IMG/VR virus record: IMGVR_UViG_3300035670_005925
Location: 1 to 21,120 of that record
Reading direction: 5' to 3' (one strand)
Length of the DNA: 21,120 nucleotides
From: a virus
The position numbers and the translations under genes are program-made. A model generated the notes under the pieces. That model was not told where the DNA came from, did no database searches, and saw nothing but the letters and a program-made list of their open reading frames with translations. Positions within the stretch are counted from its first letter, which is position 1. Each line of letters begins with the position of its first letter. Below are positions 3-19,963 of this stretch, one piece after another.

Positions 3-311
3 TCATATGCTCATAATTTTGATCCCCAGAAATCACAAAACCCATTCTCATATTTTACTCAAATAATATATTACGCATTTTTACGTAGAATAGAACGAGA
101 GAAAAAGCAATCGTACATAAAGTATAAATGCATTCAAATGAATGATGTCGATGGGAAGTTTGTAGATTGGCTGAAGGAAAATCAAGGATCTTCTACCTTT
201 TCTGAATTTCTACAGAATACATTTTTTCTGTCTGAGAACGATATAGAAAAGATGGAAAAGAAGGAGAAGGCCAAGAAAAAACGTGGAAAAAAACCCAAGA
301 GGGCAACGTGA
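3..311 (+). CDS. 55: Late-transcription sigma factor gp55, 3' part
   Basis: This is the C-terminal part (102 residues visible) of the phage-encoded sigma factor that directs host RNA polymerase to late promoters. The frame is open from the left edge to the TGA at 309-311, so the start lies outside the window. The segment HNFD, then NPFSYFTQIIYYAFLRRIE, then EKK closely resembles the T4 gp55 stretch HNFDETKYKNPHAYITQ followed by AFVQRIKKE, the sigma region 2-like core. Its position directly before gene 47 also fits the T4 order. TATAAATA-type late promoters in the same window (5721, 18399, 3177) are its expected targets. Oddly, the C terminus is lysine-rich (ending KKPKRAT) rather than showing the hydrophobic/acidic sliding-clamp-binding tail known in T4 gp55. 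The stop overlaps the GTG start of the next gene. Confidence 0.85.
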   Translation, partial: SYAHNFDPQKSQNPFSYFTQIIYYAFLRRIEREKKQSYIKYKCIQMNDVDGKFVDWLKENQGSSTFSEFLQNTFFLSENDIEKMEKKEKAKKKRGKKPKRAT

Positions 312-1491: not shown

Positions 1492-3181
1492 GAATTTTGG
1501 ATCGTTTGGAAATACATGGACGGAAATTCAGCTTGATGCAAAGAACACCACTCTAGTGTGTGGTGCAAATGGTAGCGGAAAGTCATTTGCTCTTCTTGAC
1601 AGCATAACCTTTGCATTGTTTGGCAAGCCGTTTAGAAAAATAAATCTAACACAGATAAACAATTCGATCAACAAGAAAAATTGCTTGGTTGAGTTGCTAT
1701 TCACGATAGGAAAAGATGAATACAAGATAGTAAGAGGATTGAGTCCAAAGATCTTTGAGATTTATAAAAATGATAAGATTATAAATCAGGATGCCAAGAA
1801 TCTAGATCAACAGGAACAGTTTGAGGAACAAATACTCAAGATGAATTTCAAGACTTTTACACAAGTCGTGATTCTTGGTAGTTCTTCTTTTATTCCATTC
1901 ATGCAACTATCTGCTTCTGACAGAAGGGCTGTGATAGAAAATATTCTAGATATCAATATTTTTACAACGATGAATGTTGTTCTCAAGGGAAAAATATCTC
2001 TGACAAAGGAAAATATATCTGATATCAACAATAAGATCGAATTGCAGGAACAAAAGATTCAATATCAGCAGAAAATAGTCGATGGATTGGCTATGCGGCT
2101 GAATAACGATGTTAAGAAAATAGTGGACGAGATAAAAATTCATGAAGATGAATTGTCTGTGTTACAACAAGACATTGAACAGTTGAATGTCTCCAAGAAG
2201 GATTATGTTATGGATTTTGATATCTCGGATCATAGAAAGAAATCAAAATCGATCAGCAGTGAAATTTCCAATCTGACATTCAAGATGGATGATCTTGAGA
2301 AGGAAGTCAAGTTCTTTCAGAAGACTGATAAATGTCCAAAATGCAGGACTAAATTGACTGACAAAATCAAGGAAGAAAACATCGACAAGTTGCACGAACA
2401 AGTTAATTCTCTTGAAGAATCGTTGAAGAAGTTGATGGTCGATGAGACGGAAACAGAAAAGCTGATTGAGCATTTTAATCAAACGATGAAAAAGATAGAC
2501 AAGATAGATGAAAATATCAAGGAAAAATTATCATCGATCAGGGAAATAAAATCGTTAGTTTCATATAAGTCAACGCAACTGAATGAATCGAATAAAATCG
2601 AGAATGATCTGACACGGGAAAAGGCAACGCTCAAGGTGGAGAAAGATGGATTGGTTTCTCTGAAAAAGGAAAGAGAGGAGCTAAAGAAGGATTTTGACTA
2701 TCTGAAGATGGCTGGAGATATCCTCAAGGATAACGGTGTCAAGATCAAGATAATCAAGCACTATCTTCCAGCGATGAACAAATTCATCAACAAGTATCTT
2801 CGAGCAATGGACTTTTTTGTTCAGTTCAACATCGATGAAGAATTCAATGAAGTTATCAAGAGCCGCCACCGAGATGAATTCAGTTATATGAATTTCAGTG
2901 AAGGGGAAAAGATGAGAATTGACTTGGCATTGCTTTTGGCTTGGAGAGAAATCGCCAAGATTAAAAATAGCGTGAATTGCAATTTGCTTATTCTTGATGA
3001 GATATTTGATTCGTCTCTTGATTCGGTGGGTACAGATGATGTGCTGAAACTGCTCAATGCCCTTGGAAGCAAAACAAATGTATTTGTAATCAGCCACAAG
3101 GCGGATCAGATCATCGATAAATTTTCAAATACAATAACATTTGAAAAGAAAAATAATTTCAGTAGATTGACCCAAGCATAA
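1463..3181 (+). CDS. 46: Recombination endonuclease subunit gp46 (Rad50/SbcC-like ATPase)
   Basis: This is the ATPase and DNA-tethering partner of gp47. It has 572 residues, close to T4 gp46 (560). The order is typical of an SMC-like protein: Walker A GANGSGKS at 34-41; a long charged coiled-coil region from about 185 to 415; a zinc-hook CPKC at 291-294 in its middle, where two molecules dimerise; ABC signature NFSEGEK at 477-483; Walker B LLILDE at 508-513; and an H-loop VISHK at 542-546. The ATG at 1463 lies inside the preceding 41-aa gene, with GGAAGG at 1445-1450 as a somewhat distant ribosome site. It is intact, with all catalytic motifs present. The stop is followed within a few bases by a late-promoter-like site and a non-replication gene. 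Confidence 0.96.
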   Translation: MILFKKIKFKNFGSFGNTWTEIQLDAKNTTLVCGANGSGKSFALLDSITFALFGKPFRKINLTQINNSINKKNCLVELLFTIGKDEYKIVRGLSPKIFEIYKNDKIINQDAKNLDQQEQFEEQILKMNFKTFTQVVILGSSSFIPFMQLSASDRRAVIENILDINIFTTMNVVLKGKISLTKENISDINNKIELQEQKIQYQQKIVDGLAMRLNNDVKKIVDEIKIHEDELSVLQQDIEQLNVSKKDYVMDFDISDHRKKSKSISSEISNLTFKMDDLEKEVKFFQKTDKCPKCRTKLTDKIKEENIDKLHEQVNSLEESLKKLMVDETETEKLIEHFNQTMKKIDKIDENIKEKLSSIREIKSLVSYKSTQLNESNKIENDLTREKATLKVEKDGLVSLKKEREELKKDFDYLKMAGDILKDNGVKIKIIKHYLPAMNKFINKYLRAMDFFVQFNIDEEFNEVIKSRHRDEFSYMNFSEGEKMRIDLALLLAWREIAKIKNSVNCNLLILDEIFDSSLDSVGTDDVLKLLNALGSKTNVFVISHKADQIIDKFSNTITFEKKNNFSRLTQA

Positions 3182-3184
3182 ATA
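3177..3184 (+). promoter_or_regulatory. Probable T4-type late promoter element (CATAAATA)
   Basis: CATAAATA differs from the T4 late consensus TATAAATA at one position. It spans the end of gene 46 and lies 5 nt before the ATG of the 106-aa gene at 3190. No Shine-Dalgarno sequence is visible between them. With the usual late-promoter geometry, transcription would start at or next to the ATG. The same arrangement is seen at 18399-18406. The site is inferred from its match and position only. Confidence 0.5.
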
Positions 3185-3189
3185 GTGAT

Positions 3190-3510
3190 ATGGCTATAGT
3201 TCCAGACGAAATACGATATAGGGGAAATTATAGACAATATGATACTAGAGGATACGCTGTAGTGTATTCGGTAGGTGATGTGGTTGTTTATGATGGAAAA
3301 CAATATGTTGCAATAGAAAACAATGTAAAATCTATCCCAACGAAAAAAGATTCTGGGTGGAAAATCTATACAGGAAACTTTGAGGATTATTTTTATTCAG
3401 ATGATATGCCACTAAATGTAAATGTTGGCGATAGATGGATTGACAGAGTGAGTGGAAGAATGTATACTTACATAGAAGATAAAAATGGATTTCACTGGGT
3501 TGAATTTTAA
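3190..3510 (+). CDS. Small beta-rich protein with carbohydrate-binding-like motif, probable virion component
   Basis: This is a 106-residue protein without a signal peptide or membrane segment. Residues 28-40 read VGDVVVYDGKQYV, and the second half has VGDRWIDRVSGRMYTYI ending in a WVEF tail. Such GD-x(3-4)-Y-x-G patterns with spaced tryptophans are typical of small carbohydrate-binding or fibre-adaptor modules in phage virion proteins. A similar GDIIWEYNGYAWEKL motif starts the fibre protein at 18413. A late-promoter-like site directly before the ATG, unlike the surrounding replication genes, also argues for late expression. The exact role is not known: it could be a decoration, fibre or baseplate accessory, and it may not bind sugar at all. 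The stop overlaps the next ATG (TAATG). Confidence 0.7.
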   Translation: MAIVPDEIRYRGNYRQYDTRGYAVVYSVGDVVVYDGKQYVAIENNVKSIPTKKDSGWKIYTGNFEDYFYSDDMPLNVNVGDRWIDRVSGRMYTYIEDKNGFHWVEF

Positions 3511-3680
3511 TGGATAAAAATAACAAGACTAAGGTAAATAATCCGCCGAGGCCAAGAGCGGATCGTGGTACTTACGACAAAGAGAAAAACTCCGAACGAA
3601 ATCGTTGGAAGAAGAATTTGAAAAATTACATGTCATCCAGTGGAGATGAGGACGAGGACGATTTTGAAGAGTTTGAATGA
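3510..3680 (+). CDS. Small hypothetical protein with acidic C-terminal tail, between 46 and 45
   Basis: This is a 56-residue frame starting at an ATG that overlaps the previous stop (TAATG) and ending in a TGA that overlaps the ATG at 3677 (ATGA). The N-terminal 40 residues are basic and polar (PPRPRADRG, RWKKNLKNY). The tail SGDEDEDDFEEFE is strongly acidic with aromatic residues. T4 carries rpbA and 45.2 in this interval, but I see no convincing match to either. An acidic-aromatic C terminus resembles, in general character, the clamp-binding tails of T4 gp33 and gp55, and the gene sits directly before the clamp gene. A clamp or polymerase partner is therefore a guess, not an assignment. Confidence 0.6.
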   Translation: MDKNNKTKVNNPPRPRADRGTYDKEKNSERNRWKKNLKNYMSSSGDEDEDDFEEFE

Positions 3681-4390
3681 AATGGATAATCTATATTATG
3701 ACTACAACAATGACAAATATTACTTTGAGCAAGACTACTCTTGCAATTTTGAAGAACTTCTCTTCTCTCAATTCGAATATCCTGGTAAGCCCAGGAAATA
3801 CGATCAAGACAATCACTCCTTCTATGACTGGAATGGCTGAGGCCACAGTCGAGGAGTCTTTTCCACTTGAATTTGGAATTTGGGATCTAAATAAGTTCCT
3901 TGGAGTTATCAGCCTCTTTCAGAACCCAAACTTCATCTTTGATGATAAGTTTGTTCGAATTGAAGGGCTAAATGGCACTGCCGTTAACTACTTCTATTCA
4001 AGTCCAAATCTGCTGACAACCCCAAAGAAGGAAGTCAAGATGCCTAAGATCTGTGCAGAGACAGAACTGTCGCAAGACGCATTCTCCGAGTTGAGCAGGG
4101 CAAGTTCTATTCTACAGTTGCCAGATATCTGCTTTAGGTCGAAGAATGACTCTATCTATGCTATTGTCTGTGATCTAAAGGATCCAACTAGCAATAGCTG
4201 TGAGGTTGATCTCGAATCCAGTGCCAATGGAAAGGACTTTAGCTTCAACTTCAAGATGGATAATATTCGTTTGCTTGGAGGAAACTACAAGATTTCATTC
4301 GCCAAGAACGTGGTTGCCACCTTTGAGAATCTGGATATCCCACTCAAGTATTGGTTTGCAATGGAGTCTACTTCGACTTATAATGGATGA
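3677..4390 (+). CDS. 45: Sliding clamp gp45
   Basis: This is the trimeric processivity clamp for the phage DNA polymerase, and in T4 also the mobile enhancer of late transcription. The stretch LSKTTLAILKNFSSLNSNI aligns with the T4 gp45 N terminus LSKDTTALLKNFATINSGI. IWDLNKFLGVISL matches IYDLNGFLGILSL, and a C-terminal F-x-M-x-N and GNYK pattern matches FIINMANMKMQPGNYK. The length is 237 residues from ATG 3677 (T4: 228). That start overlaps the preceding TGA and has GAAGAG 5 nt upstream, but it adds a hydrophobic MKWIIYI extension. In-frame ATGs at 3698 and 3710 (MTNITLSK) fit the family N terminus better, though they lack good ribosome sites. The family is certain; the start is open. Confidence 0.93.
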   Translation: MKWIIYIMTTTMTNITLSKTTLAILKNFSSLNSNILVSPGNTIKTITPSMTGMAEATVEESFPLEFGIWDLNKFLGVISLFQNPNFIFDDKFVRIEGLNGTAVNYFYSSPNLLTTPKKEVKMPKICAETELSQDAFSELSRASSILQLPDICFRSKNDSIYAIVCDLKDPTSNSCEVDLESSANGKDFSFNFKMDNIRLLGGNYKISFAKNVVATFENLDIPLKYWFAMESTSTYNG

Positions 4391-5717: not shown

Positions 5718-5739
5718 AAATATAAATATTTTATATTTT
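5717..5739 (+). repeat. Perfect AT-only inverted repeat upstream of regA
   Basis: AAAATATAAA (5717-5726) and TTTATATTTT (5730-5739) are perfect inverted complements with a 3-nt TAT spacer. The repeat begins in the stop codon of gene 62, contains the late-promoter octamer and ends 11 nt before the regA ATG. It could be an mRNA hairpin near the regA ribosome site, a protein-binding palindrome, or a chance product of AT-rich sequence. Confidence 0.6.
5721..5728 (+). promoter_or_regulatory. T4-type late promoter (TATAAATA)
   Basis: This is an exact match to the T4 late promoter octamer recognised by gp55-bearing RNA polymerase, located in the short gap between genes 62 and regA. The expected start site is about 6-7 nt downstream, leaving a short leader with the GGAG ribosome site for regA. 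It is a strong match in one of the few true intergenic gaps, though the surrounding DNA is very AT-rich. Confidence 0.65.
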
Positions 5740-5750
5740 ATGGAGAAATT

Positions 5751-6155
5751 ATGCCAGAAGATGATGATATATTTGATGGTTTAGGGGTTGAAATAACACT
5801 AAAAACAAAAGAAGACTTTTTGAAAGTGAAAGAAACGCTGACCCGAATTGGGGTTTCTTCAAAAAAAGAAAAGAAACTATTTCAGTCATGTCATATTTTG
5901 CACAAGCGGGGTAGATATGCAATTATGCATTTTAAGGAAATGTTCATTCTTGATGGGCTAGATAGTGATATTTCTGAAGATGATTTGGCCAGAAGAAACA
6001 CCATAGTTAAACTATTGGTGGAATGGGGTTTGGTCCAAGCGGTCGATCCAGAGGAGTATGAGGCTCCGCAACTATCATTGGCTAGACTTAAGATCATTTC
6101 ACACTCAGAAAAGAAAGACTGGGAATTGATTCCAAAATACCACATAGGTAAGTGA
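5751..6155 (+). CDS. regA: Translational repressor RegA
   Basis: This RNA-binding protein represses translation of phage early mRNAs by covering their initiation regions; in T4 its targets include genes 44, 45 and its own message. EITLKTKEDFLKVKETLTRIGV, then QSCHILHKRGRYAIMHFKEM, closely follows T4 RegA (EITLKKPEDFLKVKETLTRMGI and QSCHILQKKGLYYIVHFKEM). The end WELIPKYHIGK matches WKLVPKYTIGN. At 134 residues it is slightly longer than T4 RegA (122), with an acidic N-terminal leader MPEDDDIFDG and an insertion near residues 100-110. The start is supported by TGGAGAAATTATG. In T4, gene 43 (DNA polymerase) follows; here the sugar cluster follows instead. Confidence 0.97.
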   Translation: MPEDDDIFDGLGVEITLKTKEDFLKVKETLTRIGVSSKKEKKLFQSCHILHKRGRYAIMHFKEMFILDGLDSDISEDDLARRNTIVKLLVEWGLVQAVDPEEYEAPQLSLARLKIISHSEKKDWELIPKYHIGK

Positions 6156-9480: not shown

Positions 9481-9488
9481 AATAAATA
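9481..9488 (+). promoter_or_regulatory. Possible late-promoter-like site (AATAAATA)
   Basis: AATAAATA, one mismatch from the T4 late octamer, lies in a 24-nt intergenic gap and ends 14 nt before the ATG at 9503. The DNA here is extremely AT-rich and similar octamers occur by chance inside nearby genes, so support is weak. Confidence 0.25.
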
Positions 9489-9502
9489 ACGAGATAATAA
9501 AA

Positions 9503-10399
9503 ATGAATTTTAAAAAATATATATGCACAATAAGCGACGATCACTATTTAAGCAGAGGATTAGCACTAATAGAATCTTTAAAAAAATATAATGATGACGT
9601 TCATGTATTTTATTTGTGCATTAACGATAAGTGTTTTAATAATGTTAAAAATATTAAACTAGATGGTGTAGAATTTATACATGTAAAAGATATCATAAAA
9701 AATGATAGTAGATTTTTAAATATAATCCCGAGTAGAGAAGCTACCGCTGTCGGTTCTGTTACAGAAATAAGTCAGGATTTAATAGAATTGGCATATAAGA
9801 TGTCATCGTATTTTCCAAAATACTGTTTAGATGTCTATGACATAGATCATGTGATCTATATGGATGCTGATATTTATTTTTATAAATCACTAGATACAAT
9901 ATATTCTGATGTTGGTGATAAATCATTTGGTATTGTAGAACACAGAATTCCATATTCTGGATGTGGTAAATACAATGTTGGTGTGATTTATAATAAAAAT
10001 AATAAAACTGCAAAATCTATATTAGATTTTTGGTCATATTGTGTTTTAGATCCAAACAATCCATTTGCAGAAAAATTTGGAACGTGTGGGGATCAAAAAT
10101 ATTTGGAATTAATTTATACATTATATGGAAGTGATAATATAGCTATTATCGGTGATTCTACTGGTCATTTAGCTCCATGGAATATTCCACACCATAGATA
10201 TATGCATGAGCGTGGAAAAATTGTATGGGAAAATAAAATACAAGATCTTGTTTATATTCATTATTCTAATTTCATATCTGATATTAAAAATATGACATAT
10301 AAAGTTGGTCCAAGACACGGAATAGATAGAGTAGATTCTATCCCTTGGTTAGCGGATATGTGTGAAGAATATTTAAAAAGCATAAAGGATAATACATGA
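9503..10399 (+). CDS. GT8-like glycosyltransferase
   Basis: This 298-residue protein resembles CAZy family GT8-type retaining glycosyltransferases. It opens KYICTISDDHYLSRGLALIESL, the usual first strand and helix. It has HVIYMDADIYFYK with the DxD metal motif at 121-123, CGKYNVGVIY (N-x-G pattern) at about 153-162, and a late YIHYSNF containing a histidine where GT8 enzymes place a metal ligand. The sugar donor is usually a UDP-hexose in this family, but I cannot tell which here. No membrane segment is present. Its stop overlaps the next gene by 4 nt. Confidence 0.75.
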   Translation: MNFKKYICTISDDHYLSRGLALIESLKKYNDDVHVFYLCINDKCFNNVKNIKLDGVEFIHVKDIIKNDSRFLNIIPSREATAVGSVTEISQDLIELAYKMSSYFPKYCLDVYDIDHVIYMDADIYFYKSLDTIYSDVGDKSFGIVEHRIPYSGCGKYNVGVIYNKNNKTAKSILDFWSYCVLDPNNPFAEKFGTCGDQKYLELIYTLYGSDNIAIIGDSTGHLAPWNIPHHRYMHERGKIVWENKIQDLVYIHYSNFISDIKNMTYKVGPRHGIDRVDSIPWLADMCEEYLKSIKDNT

Positions 10400-17157: not shown

Positions 17158-18368
17158 TGCACAAACTATGTCTATCGATGATTGTCAAGAATGAGTCTCA
17201 TATCATACATGAATGTCTTAATTCTATTTGGAAAGAGATCGATTACTGGGTGATTGTAGATACTGGTTCTACCGACAATACCAAGGAGATCATAACAGAT
17301 TTCTTCAAGGAAAAGGGAATACCTGGTGAACTTCACGAAAGACCTTGGGTTTCCTTCGGACACAACCGAACCGAAGCCCTTGATTTATGCAAGGGAAAAG
17401 CACATTATGCATTCATGATAGACGCTGACGATTATCTAGTTGGCTCATTGAAGTTCAATCCAGATCACAATGTTGATGGATATATTCTCAAAATGGGAAG
17501 AGAAGACTTCTCATGGTGGCGTTCCCAGATTTTCAAATTGGAATCAAACTGGAAGTATGTCGGTGTACTTCATGAATATGCCATGTGCGACACACCACAG
17601 CCAGTAATGGCTAGGTTGGTTGGTGATTATCGCATTGTAGCCAGAACAGAGGGTGCTAGAAATGTCGGAATAACTCCAGTCGAGAAGTACAAGAAAGACG
17701 CAGAGATTCTAGAAAAGGCATTGGAAACCGAGCCAGCAAACTCCAGATATCAATTTTATCTAGCACAATCCTACTTTGATTCCCAGCAATGGGAAAAGGC
17801 CGAAGAAGCTTACCGTAAGCGAGCCGAGATGGGTGGGTGGGAAGAGGAGGTCTATTATTCACTATACCGCGTTGCAGTCACAATGGCCATGCAAAACAAG
17901 CCATGGGAAGACATACAACAGGCATTTTTAGACTCGTTCAACTCAAGACCAATTCGAGCCGAGCCCCTGTTCCATATAGCACAAATCTATCGAACTAAAT
18001 TCAAGAAGCCAGCCCTTGCATATCTTTTTGCTAAGATGGCATCTGAGATACCATTCCCAGCAAACGACATCTTGTTCGTTCCAGATATCATCTATAAGTT
18101 TGGAATATTGGATGAGATTGCTGCTACTGCTTATTACGCAGGACAACCAATCATTGGTCATATGGCATGTAAGAAGCTATTGACTGAAAACCGCGTACCA
18201 CCACAAGAACTTCCAAGAATCCAGGCTAATCTTGAGCAATATGAGAAAATACTTGCACAGATGCAGATGGCATACCAGCAGCAAAACATACAGCAGCCAC
18301 AGAATATAAAATTCAATACAGACAGCAAGCCAGAAAAGAAAAAGAAGAAATTTAAAAATCGCAAGTAA
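17157..18368 (+). CDS. GT2 glycosyltransferase with TPR-like helical C-terminal region
   Basis: This is a 403-residue fusion-type protein. Residues 1-110 are a family 2 GT-A domain: LSMIVKNES at 6-14, VIVDTGSTDNT at 32-42, and MIDADDYL at 87-94 with the DxD motif. From about 175 to 330 the protein is helical and TPR-like: NSRYQFYLAQSYFDSQQWEKAEEAYRKR, then repeats around EVYYSLYRVA and PLFHIAQIYR. The tail is glutamine-rich and then strongly basic (KPEKKKKKFKNRK). GT2-TPR proteins of this form are frequent in T4-like aquatic phages; their substrate is unknown to me. It is the last gene before the terminator and has core-like base composition. Confidence 0.85.
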   Translation: MHKLCLSMIVKNESHIIHECLNSIWKEIDYWVIVDTGSTDNTKEIITDFFKEKGIPGELHERPWVSFGHNRTEALDLCKGKAHYAFMIDADDYLVGSLKFNPDHNVDGYILKMGREDFSWWRSQIFKLESNWKYVGVLHEYAMCDTPQPVMARLVGDYRIVARTEGARNVGITPVEKYKKDAEILEKALETEPANSRYQFYLAQSYFDSQQWEKAEEAYRKRAEMGGWEEEVYYSLYRVAVTMAMQNKPWEDIQQAFLDSFNSRPIRAEPLFHIAQIYRTKFKKPALAYLFAKMASEIPFPANDILFVPDIIYKFGILDEIAATAYYAGQPIIGHMACKKLLTENRVPPQELPRIQANLEQYEKILAQMQMAYQQQNIQQPQNIKFNTDSKPEKKKKKFKNRK

Positions 18369-18372
18369 AATT

Positions 18373-18394
18373 GGCTCCGAAAGGAGCCTTTTTT
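18373..18394 (+). terminator. Rho-independent terminator
   Basis: GGCTCC (18373-18378), GAAA tetraloop, GGAGCC (18383-18388), then six Ts. This is a perfect 6-bp GC stem with a stable GNRA loop and a U tract, 5 nt after the stop of the GT2-TPR gene. It separates the sugar cluster from the late structural genes. Confidence 0.92.
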
Positions 18395-18398
18395 ATTA

Positions 18399-18406
18399 GA
18401 TAAATA
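18399..18406 (+). promoter_or_regulatory. Probable T4-type late promoter element (GATAAATA)
   Basis: GATAAATA is one mismatch from TATAAATA and lies just after a strong terminator. It ends 6 nt before the ATG at 18413, with no Shine-Dalgarno sequence between. The predicted start site falls at or next to the ATG, the same arrangement as at 3177-3190. Location after a terminator and before a fibre-type gene supports a real late promoter. Confidence 0.65.
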
Positions 18407-18412
18407 TTGAAT

Positions 18413-19963
18413 ATGCCGTTCAATTTTCCTTCAAGTCCATCTACTGGAAATACCTATTCTTTTGGTGATATCATCTGGGAATATAATGGATATGCATGGG
18501 AAAAACTGGATTTACTTGGTACTGGAATAGTAGGACCAACTGGTGCAACTGGCCAGGATGGATCGGGTGCACCTGGAAACAACGATGTGGGTGTACTGTA
18601 TTTAAAGGGTAATACTTTTGAGACTACCATTCCATCAATCAATGGTAGATCTATTGTCGTTGGAAATGTTCAAACTGGTACTCTATTTAATTTCATAAAG
18701 GATCCATCAACAAATTCATTGAAATATACTGGAGCTGGTGGAAGATTTCATATAATATGCACATTTAATTTTTACAATGGAAGTCAGGATATTTGTGGAT
18801 TTTATATAGGACACAACAAGAATATAGCATCTGCACTTGACCCAAATGCAGATAGAATTAGTGAAAGTGAAATATACGCAAATTCTGCAAATCCATCTAC
18901 TCAGCCAATTGCTGGAACCATTCAAACGATTTTAGATTTAAACACAGATGATAGAATATTTTTAATCGTTCAAAATAAAGAATCTACTAACAGCATATTA
19001 GTAGAATTCATGAAATTTATTGCAGTTCCATTGACTTCTGAGCGTGGTGCTACTGGCCCACAGGGGCCAACAGGATCAAGTGGCTCACTTGTATCTGATT
19101 ATGTCATATCTGTTAATGGGCTCACTGGCGATATAATTAATGTTCCTTTTACGAATCAGGTTAATTATTTTTCTGCAATACAATCGTTTGATAGAGGAAT
19201 TACAATTTCTAATTCTGTTGGGTCTAATGTCATAGATGTGATTGCTGCAACGGATGGGACTGGGCTTAGAATTGCTCAAGCAGGATCTGGCAGCAGTGCT
19301 AGAGTGGGGAGTATACGGCTTGGTAGAAGTACAACAAATGCTGCTAATGTTTTGCTTGAAGGATACGTTGGGCAGTTTAGATTCTACAATGGAATAACTG
19401 GCACTAATGGTGCAAGTCCAGGAACAAACATGCTCACTTTAAGCACGACAAATGCAATATTTGGTGTGCCGATTAGCGGGGTTACATTTACTGGTAACAT
19501 CATTGGTGTTGGTGCAACTTTTAGTGGAAATTTATTTGCAAATAATATAGTCAATTCAGTAAATGGAATGACTGGAAATGTTGTTGTTTCTGGGTCATCT
19601 GGTGTCACACAGGAAGATAATATAACTATTTTTATCGATGCAAGACCAGATGACATATCAACAGGAAACAAAAGTTATAAACAAATTGCCTATGATTGTA
19701 TTCCTATTGAATGGTATATTATTTCTGGACAAACTGGAAATATTCAGTTTGATGTTAAGAAATCATCTTTTGAAAACTATCCAACGACAACATCGATAGT
19801 TGGATCTGATTATCCTGGATTGAGTGGATCTATGAAAAATTCTAATATAGGAATAACGTTATGGTCTGGAATGAGTGCTGGTGATGTTGTAGATTTTATA
19901 ATAAATAGTAATACGGGCATTCAGAGCGTTGGATTATTCATAAAGATCAGGAGAACATCGTGA
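18413..19963 (+). CDS. Collagen-repeat tail-fibre-type structural protein
   Basis: This is a 516-residue modular virion protein. Order: an N-terminal motif GDIIWEYNGYAWEKL (18-32); short collagen-like GXY stretches at 41-55 (GPTGATGQDG) and 212-224 (GATGPQGPTG); a beta-rich domain at about 105-207; two SVNGxTG motifs at 233-239 and 382-388, common in phage fibres; a glycine/serine-rich beta region; and a C-terminal beta domain at about 400-516 (IPIEWYIISGQTGNIQFDV onward), like those ending many phage tail proteins. It would act as a trimeric fibre or adhesin. The ATG at 18413 is preferred over an in-frame TTG at 18407, since only the ATG follows the promoter with suitable spacing. The stop overlaps the GTG of the next gene. 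Confidence 0.85.
   Translation: MPFNFPSSPSTGNTYSFGDIIWEYNGYAWEKLDLLGTGIVGPTGATGQDGSGAPGNNDVGVLYLKGNTFETTIPSINGRSIVVGNVQTGTLFNFIKDPSTNSLKYTGAGGRFHIICTFNFYNGSQDICGFYIGHNKNIASALDPNADRISESEIYANSANPSTQPIAGTIQTILDLNTDDRIFLIVQNKESTNSILVEFMKFIAVPLTSERGATGPQGPTGSSGSLVSDYVISVNGLTGDIINVPFTNQVNYFSAIQSFDRGITISNSVGSNVIDVIAATDGTGLRIAQAGSGSSARVGSIRLGRSTTNAANVLLEGYVGQFRFYNGITGTNGASPGTNMLTLSTTNAIFGVPISGVTFTGNIIGVGATFSGNLFANNIVNSVNGMTGNVVVSGSSGVTQEDNITIFIDARPDDISTGNKSYKQIAYDCIPIEWYIISGQTGNIQFDVKKSSFENYPTTTSIVGSDYPGLSGSMKNSNIGITLWSGMSAGDVVDFIINSNTGIQSVGLFIKIRRTS

Follow-up and report, generated by a model that had tools for sequence, protein, structure and literature searches.

The fibre locus and its setting

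The stretch of DNA analyzed here, hereafter the window, is a 21,120-base fragment of a T4-like phage from a virus record. Genes run in the order part of gp55, 47, 46, a small tail-fibre-like gene, 45, 44, 62, and regA, followed by sugar-related and unassigned genes and then by fibre genes. Features central to the analysis are listed below (a gap is the number of nucleotides between a late box and the ATG).

3..311, + strand: gp55 late sigma factor, C-terminal part, cut by the window start (tblastn; HTVC008M gp55 2e-16, Syn9 gp55 4e-15)
3177..3184, + strand: abutting late box CATAAATA, overlapping the gene 46 stop codon, 5 nt before the ATG at 3190
3190..3510, + strand: 106-aa tail-fibre-like protein, gap 5 (weak PHROG tail-fibre matches, best E 0.0011)
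3677..4390, + strand: gp45 sliding clamp, a late co-activator in T4 (PHROG_223, 9e-65)
5721..5728, + strand: leadered late box TATAAATA of regA, 22-nt gap, GGAG at 5742-5745, ATG at 5751
5751..6155, + strand: regA translational repressor (PHROG_242, 5e-52)
18373..18394, + strand: intrinsic terminator (6-bp stem, GAAA loop, T6 tail) with a glycosyltransferase-like gene 5' and the fibre gene 3'
18399..18406, + strand: T4-type late promoter box GATAAATA, a sequence match to the 8-bp late box
18407..18412, + strand: 6-nt gap TTGAAT, with the RNA start predicted at the ATG or in the final base(s) of the gap (T4 numbering)
18413..19963, + strand: fibre/virion structural gene, 516 aa, start MPFNFP (PHROG_10330 virion structural protein, 5e-9; N-terminal family aligned)

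The gene 5' of the fibre gene ends at 18368, ahead of the terminator, whose stem-loop (GGCTCC-gaaa-GGAGCC, 18373-18388) is followed by TTTTTT. As RNA, the 30-nt terminator stretch has a fold of -14.6 kcal/mol (z -4.2). The initial annotation had described a late box 6 nt 5' of the fibre ATG (18413-18415), behind a GC-rich terminator and with no Shine–Dalgarno (SD) sequence. These descriptions hold: box and terminator lie at 18399-18406 and 18373-18394, and GGAG, GAGG, and AGGA are all absent from -18 to -5 of the start. The nearest SD-like motif sits in the terminator stem, ∼28 nt upstream of the ATG, and the -35 position of the late box falls in or beside the terminator. The regA promoter, as was also described, leaves room for a GGAG.

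The fibre site has the 8-bp box of T4-type late promoters (TATAAATA or NATAAATA), and gp55 and gp45 are encoded in the window; a gp33-like match was found only in one relative, G001 (E 2e-7). The site also has the marks of a leaderless gene, with a box one helical turn 5' of the start codon (gap 6), no SD, and an AUG start. BLASTP at 1e-3 ties the 106-aa tail-fibre-like protein to the fibre family. At 9481-9503, among the genes of the middle block, AATAAATA lies 14 nt 5' of an ATG that lacks a strong SD, a spacing of intermediate length. Within the fibre protein, residues 52-203 are 61% identical to a protein in the Synechococcus phage S-CBS4 record, a likeness that suggests possible exchange of fibre domains between phage types.

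The gp44 of the window has at most 57% identity to phage records among the matches listed, and identity is below 60% in all 2,505 matching records. A 30-row gp44 tree places the window inside a 20-row branch (support 97/89) composed of IMG/VR sequences only; groups outside this branch are five cyanomyophages (95/99), HTVC008M and Mosig (99/97), and T4 and RB49. Syn9 psbA, hli, petE, and talC had no match at 1e-4 in the relatives searched, which are mostly fragments, and Rfam had 0 matches within the window. Relative G001 has a tRNA-Arg(TCT) (L096:5025-5100) with a 30-nt core that matches exactly in seven GTDB stretches only, whose titles all name Opitutia, Opitutaceae, or Candidatus Didemnitutus. 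No exact match was found for 45 nt of the tRNA, and longer identity to the seven is just 93-95% over 53-67 nt, so that the match may serve as a weak lead to the host. In the record of L003 and G008, a fibre-relative phage contig bears a tmRNA predicted by ARAGORN (L104:10543-10976; starred, probably permuted, predicted tag AAPMRMAA).

Late boxes are phased to AUG in two groups of phages

The late-box octamer occurs in the window at a frequency expected by chance (4 found vs. 3.47 expected); box frequency was therefore rejected as evidence, and it is box position, not presence, that carries the signal. Of the 17 ATAAATA sites in the window by itself, a single one has gap 5 and another has gap 6, too few for a test; the spacing signal emerges across relatives only. 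Independently of gene calls, we counted ATG at offsets 0-60 after each ATAAATA on both strands, with near-duplicate sites removed and with the background mean taken from the other offsets, leaving out 5-7. The window set consists of 21 records (464 kb, 183 sites): the window, L011-L018, L020-L027, G001, G007, G008, and G010.

At offset 5, the window set has 25 ATGs against a background mean of 4.40 (highest 9; P = 1.1e-11), and the SAR11/OM43 myophages HTVC008M, Mosig, and Melnitz (140 sites) have 21 against 3.31 (P = 6.9e-11). There is no offset-5 peak in Syn9, S-PM2, P-SSM4, S-SKS1, and DSL-LC02 when pooled (241 sites; 5 vs. 5.83), nor in T4 and RB49 (91 sites; 4 vs. 2.14). Counts of GTG and TTG show no rise at this offset (each positive set has 0 GTG and 1 TTG), and the peak was not reproduced by any of twenty permuted 7-mers, whether or not they contained TAA (best share of sites 0.051 vs. 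0.137 and 0.150 observed). More distant relatives, with 55-65% gp44 identity (797 kb), give little signal, with only 3 sites at gaps 5-6 where controls average 1.05 and reach 4.

An artefact of the ORF caller was rejected because the 5-nt peak persists without ORFs. G008 and G010, which joined the window set through fibre similarity and have no gp44 match, were dropped to leave only gp44-placed records; the peak remained (19 vs. 3.55; P = 8e-9), and the idea that a few records drive it was likewise rejected. Offset 6, the fibre gene's own, is not significant in the ORF-free count (8 vs. 4.40; without G008 and G010, 6 vs. 3.55, P = 0.15). With called genes, gap 6 is above controls (4 vs. a control average of 0.3 for the clade set; 6 vs. 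0.85 in another count). Support for the gap of the fibre gene consists of these ORF-based counts and of four gap-6 fibres.

Abutting and leadered late units coexist

Among called genes, the histogram of gaps has a sharp peak at 5 nt, accompanied by 6-7, where starts have no SD; a second, broad class begins at ∼14 nt, and most of its starts do have one. In the window set, after de-duplication, gaps of 5, 6, and 7 were found 18, 6, and 6 times, gaps of 9-13 nine times, and the remainder are mostly 14-28. The SAR11/OM43 phages have 17 starts at gap 5 and one at gap 7, then mostly gaps of at least 15, with strays at 0, 2, 8, and 10 (n = 1, 1, 2, and 1). Nearly all gaps in cyanomyophages and T-evens are 13-45. 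The proposal in the initial annotation that late units are of two classes is thus upheld for relatives of the window and for the SAR11/OM43 myophages and fails for T4, RB49, S-PM2, Syn9, and S-SKS1. Efficient translation of leaderless RNA by the host, which that annotation also proposed, is a possibility only.

We classed starts as abutting (gap 5-7) or leadered (gap 10-45) and sought a strong SD motif in -18 to -5. In the window set, none of the 30 abutting starts has an SD, compared with 29 of the 45 leadered starts (Fisher 1e-9); in SAR11/OM43 phages, the counts are 2 of 18 and 30 of 43, respectively. Absence of an SD at abutting starts is partly automatic because the box occupies the SD position, and the more informative result is that SDs are used by the leadered units of these phages. 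Just 5' of the box, a terminator-like hairpin is present at 11 of 30 abutting starts compared with 1 of 45 leadered starts in the window set (Fisher 1e-4), and at 3 of 18 compared with 1 of 43 in SAR11/OM43 phages. On sequence, a division into two putative classes of late unit is well supported.

Abutting starts recur at the same genes

Annotated starts were checked in HTVC008M and Syn9. The pattern ATAAATAN{5,6}ATG occurs ten times in HTVC008M and coincides with an annotated CDS start in nine, all at gap 5: gp010, gp014, gp027, gp053, gp063, gp092, and gp190 on the plus strand and gp020 and gp025 on the minus strand. The tenth match, with its ATG at 79708, has no annotated start. Neither of the two matches in Syn9 is at an annotated start.

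Searching all loci collected for the fibre N-terminal family (M..NFP...W..G..W) identified four first cistrons that start with MP[FL]NFP, in the window, L003, L005, and L100, and all four have a gap of exactly 6. Three members have a gap of 16 with GAGAGG or AAGAGG (L298, L301, and L302), and ten starts have no ATAAATA within 70 nt upstream; L293 is a repeat of the G001 site. A terminator precedes three of the four gap-6 fibres; the stem-loop of L003 is identical to that of the window and the one of L005 is unrelated. Other genes recur as well. A gap of 5-6 is found at the small fibre-like gene that follows gene 46 in the window, L011, L012, L013, L014, L015, L017, L018, and L021, and the gene after gp23, of a PHROG "tail tube" family, has a gap of 5 in G001, G007, L013, L017, L021, and Mosig. 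A gap of 5 is common to the end-protector-type genes of HTVC008M, Mosig, and Melnitz and is found at the baseplate wedge gene in HTVC008M and G001.

Spacing varies among regA-length genes (window 5721-5751; L015, L021, L022, and L099), from an SD leader of 21-25 nt to a gap of 9-13 nt without SD, and thus the leader state of one gene may change. P-SSM4 has three starts at gaps 5-6 and DSL-LC02 has one at gap 5, so the abutting class is not strictly absent from cyanomyophages. One start in P-SSM4 (107316; L226:7316) belongs to a plastoquinol terminal oxidase gene with a TATAAATA box 5 nt 5' of its ATG. HTVC008M encodes ribosomal protein S21, and Melnitz and Mosig are reported to encode it. A link between S21 and the abutting class was rejected because the window relatives searched have no S21 (best E 0.30); S21 is not needed for the class.

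A predicted RNA start at the fibre AUG

In one account of the T4 late box, the first T is numbered -13 (PMC2988020), which places the box at -13 to -6 and +1 at the sixth base past it. By this numbering, the A of the AUG is +1 at gap 5, +2 at gap 6, and +3 at gap 7. The 5-nt peak therefore coincides with exact leaderlessness, and the fibre leader is predicted to be 0-2 nt, depending on the base used.

We consider it likely, with a probability of roughly 0.78, that the fibre site is a gp55-type late promoter that starts RNA at or one base before the AUG and that the fibre mRNA, leaderless or nearly so, is translated independently of an SD as part of a lineage-restricted second class. RNA polymerase with gp55 would start at or just ahead of the fibre AUG and, because such a start is at or one base before the codon, the mRNA would have essentially no leader. 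Ribosomes would then initiate on the 5'-terminal AUG without an SD. We infer the 5' end of the RNA, its dependence on gp55, and its leaderless translation from sequence. The second late class would have gaps of 5-7 nt and no SD, would often be directly behind a terminator, and would coexist with ordinary leadered late units that have gaps of ∼14 nt or more and an SD. The terminator could, speculatively, act as a lock that halts RNA from upstream, with any RNA that leaks through lacking an SD. It is possible but on balance doubtful that a lineage of T4-like phages has evolved a leaderless regulon dedicated to late expression, with structural genes tied to late promoters of their own by terminators and SD-less read-through such that only RNA starting at the AUG yields protein. 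A gene without an SD would be poorly translated from read-through RNA and, if such a regulon exists, expression would hinge on late transcription and on a leaderless-competent state of ribosomes late in infection.

Alternatively, the fibre message could be a longer RNA begun farther upstream, by read-through of the terminator or from an upstream promoter, with ATAAATA as incidental AT-rich sequence. Genes here are co-directional and terminators leak, the octamer count is at chance, and SD-less starts are common outside the late-box class (strong SD in 115 of 322). Against these stand the exact phasing at 5 nt to AUG only, its absence with permuted 7-mers and from T4, RB49, and the pooled cyanomyophages, and the strong terminator that intervenes in the window and is likewise placed in L003 and L005; we regard a longer transcript as unlikely.

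Tight packing of operons, in which the TAA in ATAAATA is the stop codon of the upstream gene, the intergenic gap is short, and there is no promoter, fits the overlap of box 3177-3184 with the gene 46 stop codon. However, TAA-containing permuted 7-mers have mean shares of only 0.024 and 0.027 compared with 0.137 and 0.150, by which a stop-codon artefact was rejected. In addition, the gene 5' of the fibre gene stops before the terminator, and the excess of terminators just 5' of abutting sites of the clade set (11 of 30 vs. 1 of 45) speaks against it, making this explanation very improbable. Use of another start codon, whether TTG 18407 immediately 3' of the box or an in-frame codon farther on whose leader would lie inside the frame, is also improbable. 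TTG 18407 is in frame with no intervening stop, but it is upstream of the predicted +1, and relatives, including those that are leadered with an SD, share an M-x(2-4)-FP N-terminus at the fibre ATG.

Implications and comparison with known systems

The candidate abutting late promoters are a lineage-restricted variant of T4-type late promoters, with a strong signature in sequence and a simple putative mechanism. If they function as predicted, T4-type late transcription has been rewired in phages of abundant aquatic bacteria and the position of the promoter sets the mode of translation. Leaderless translation would then be predicted late in infection of SAR11 or OM43, and HTVC008M, Mosig, and Melnitz are cultured phages with the abutting class. 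For gene callers, box + 5 offers a start-site rule. In pelagimyophages, prediction of middle and late promoters is described as unsuccessful (PMC7029224), and abutting spacing is a possible reason for the failure with late promoters. Melnitz has 15 listed late promoters, and no remark on their spacing was found in the available portion of that report (PMC9004378). There, as in the available portion of PMC11845039, "leaderless" appears in a reference title only. The literature searched (titles and abstract openings, partial coverage) yielded no description of leaderless late transcripts in T4-like phages. A paper on AR9 has a passage calling phage transcripts "often leaderless", yet gives leaders of 26-491 nt for AR9 (PMC5312081).

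Late promoters of T4, which depend on gp55, gp33, and gp45, have the same box as the window, where gp55 and gp45 are encoded, and a gp33-like gene is in a relative. In T4 and RB49, however, the box is 14-45 nt from the ATG, an SD is present at 32 of 42 starts, and no called start has a gap of 5-7. The motif NATAAATA is given as the late motif of cyanomyoviruses in one report (PMC2984593), and such promoters in S-PM2 and Syn9 share the degenerate first base of the window box. Among the five cyanomyophage genomes, there are 112 classed sites (gap 5-7 or 10-45), of which only two, both in P-SSM4, have abutting gaps. HTVC008M, Mosig, and Melnitz have the same abutting class as the window (18 of 61 classed sites), although they are in a different gp44 branch.

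Outside of phages, the sequence sign described for leaderless bacterial genes is a promoter box ∼10-12 bp 5' of the start codon (PMC3160421). The logic is the same, a box one turn upstream without an SD, but as described there the bacterial genes use host sigma-70 promoters whereas the window site has a phage late box. In Lactococcus cremoris, measured leader lengths are reported to be bimodal, with none between 4 and 14 nt (PMC10986495), a distribution similar in shape to that of gaps in these phages.
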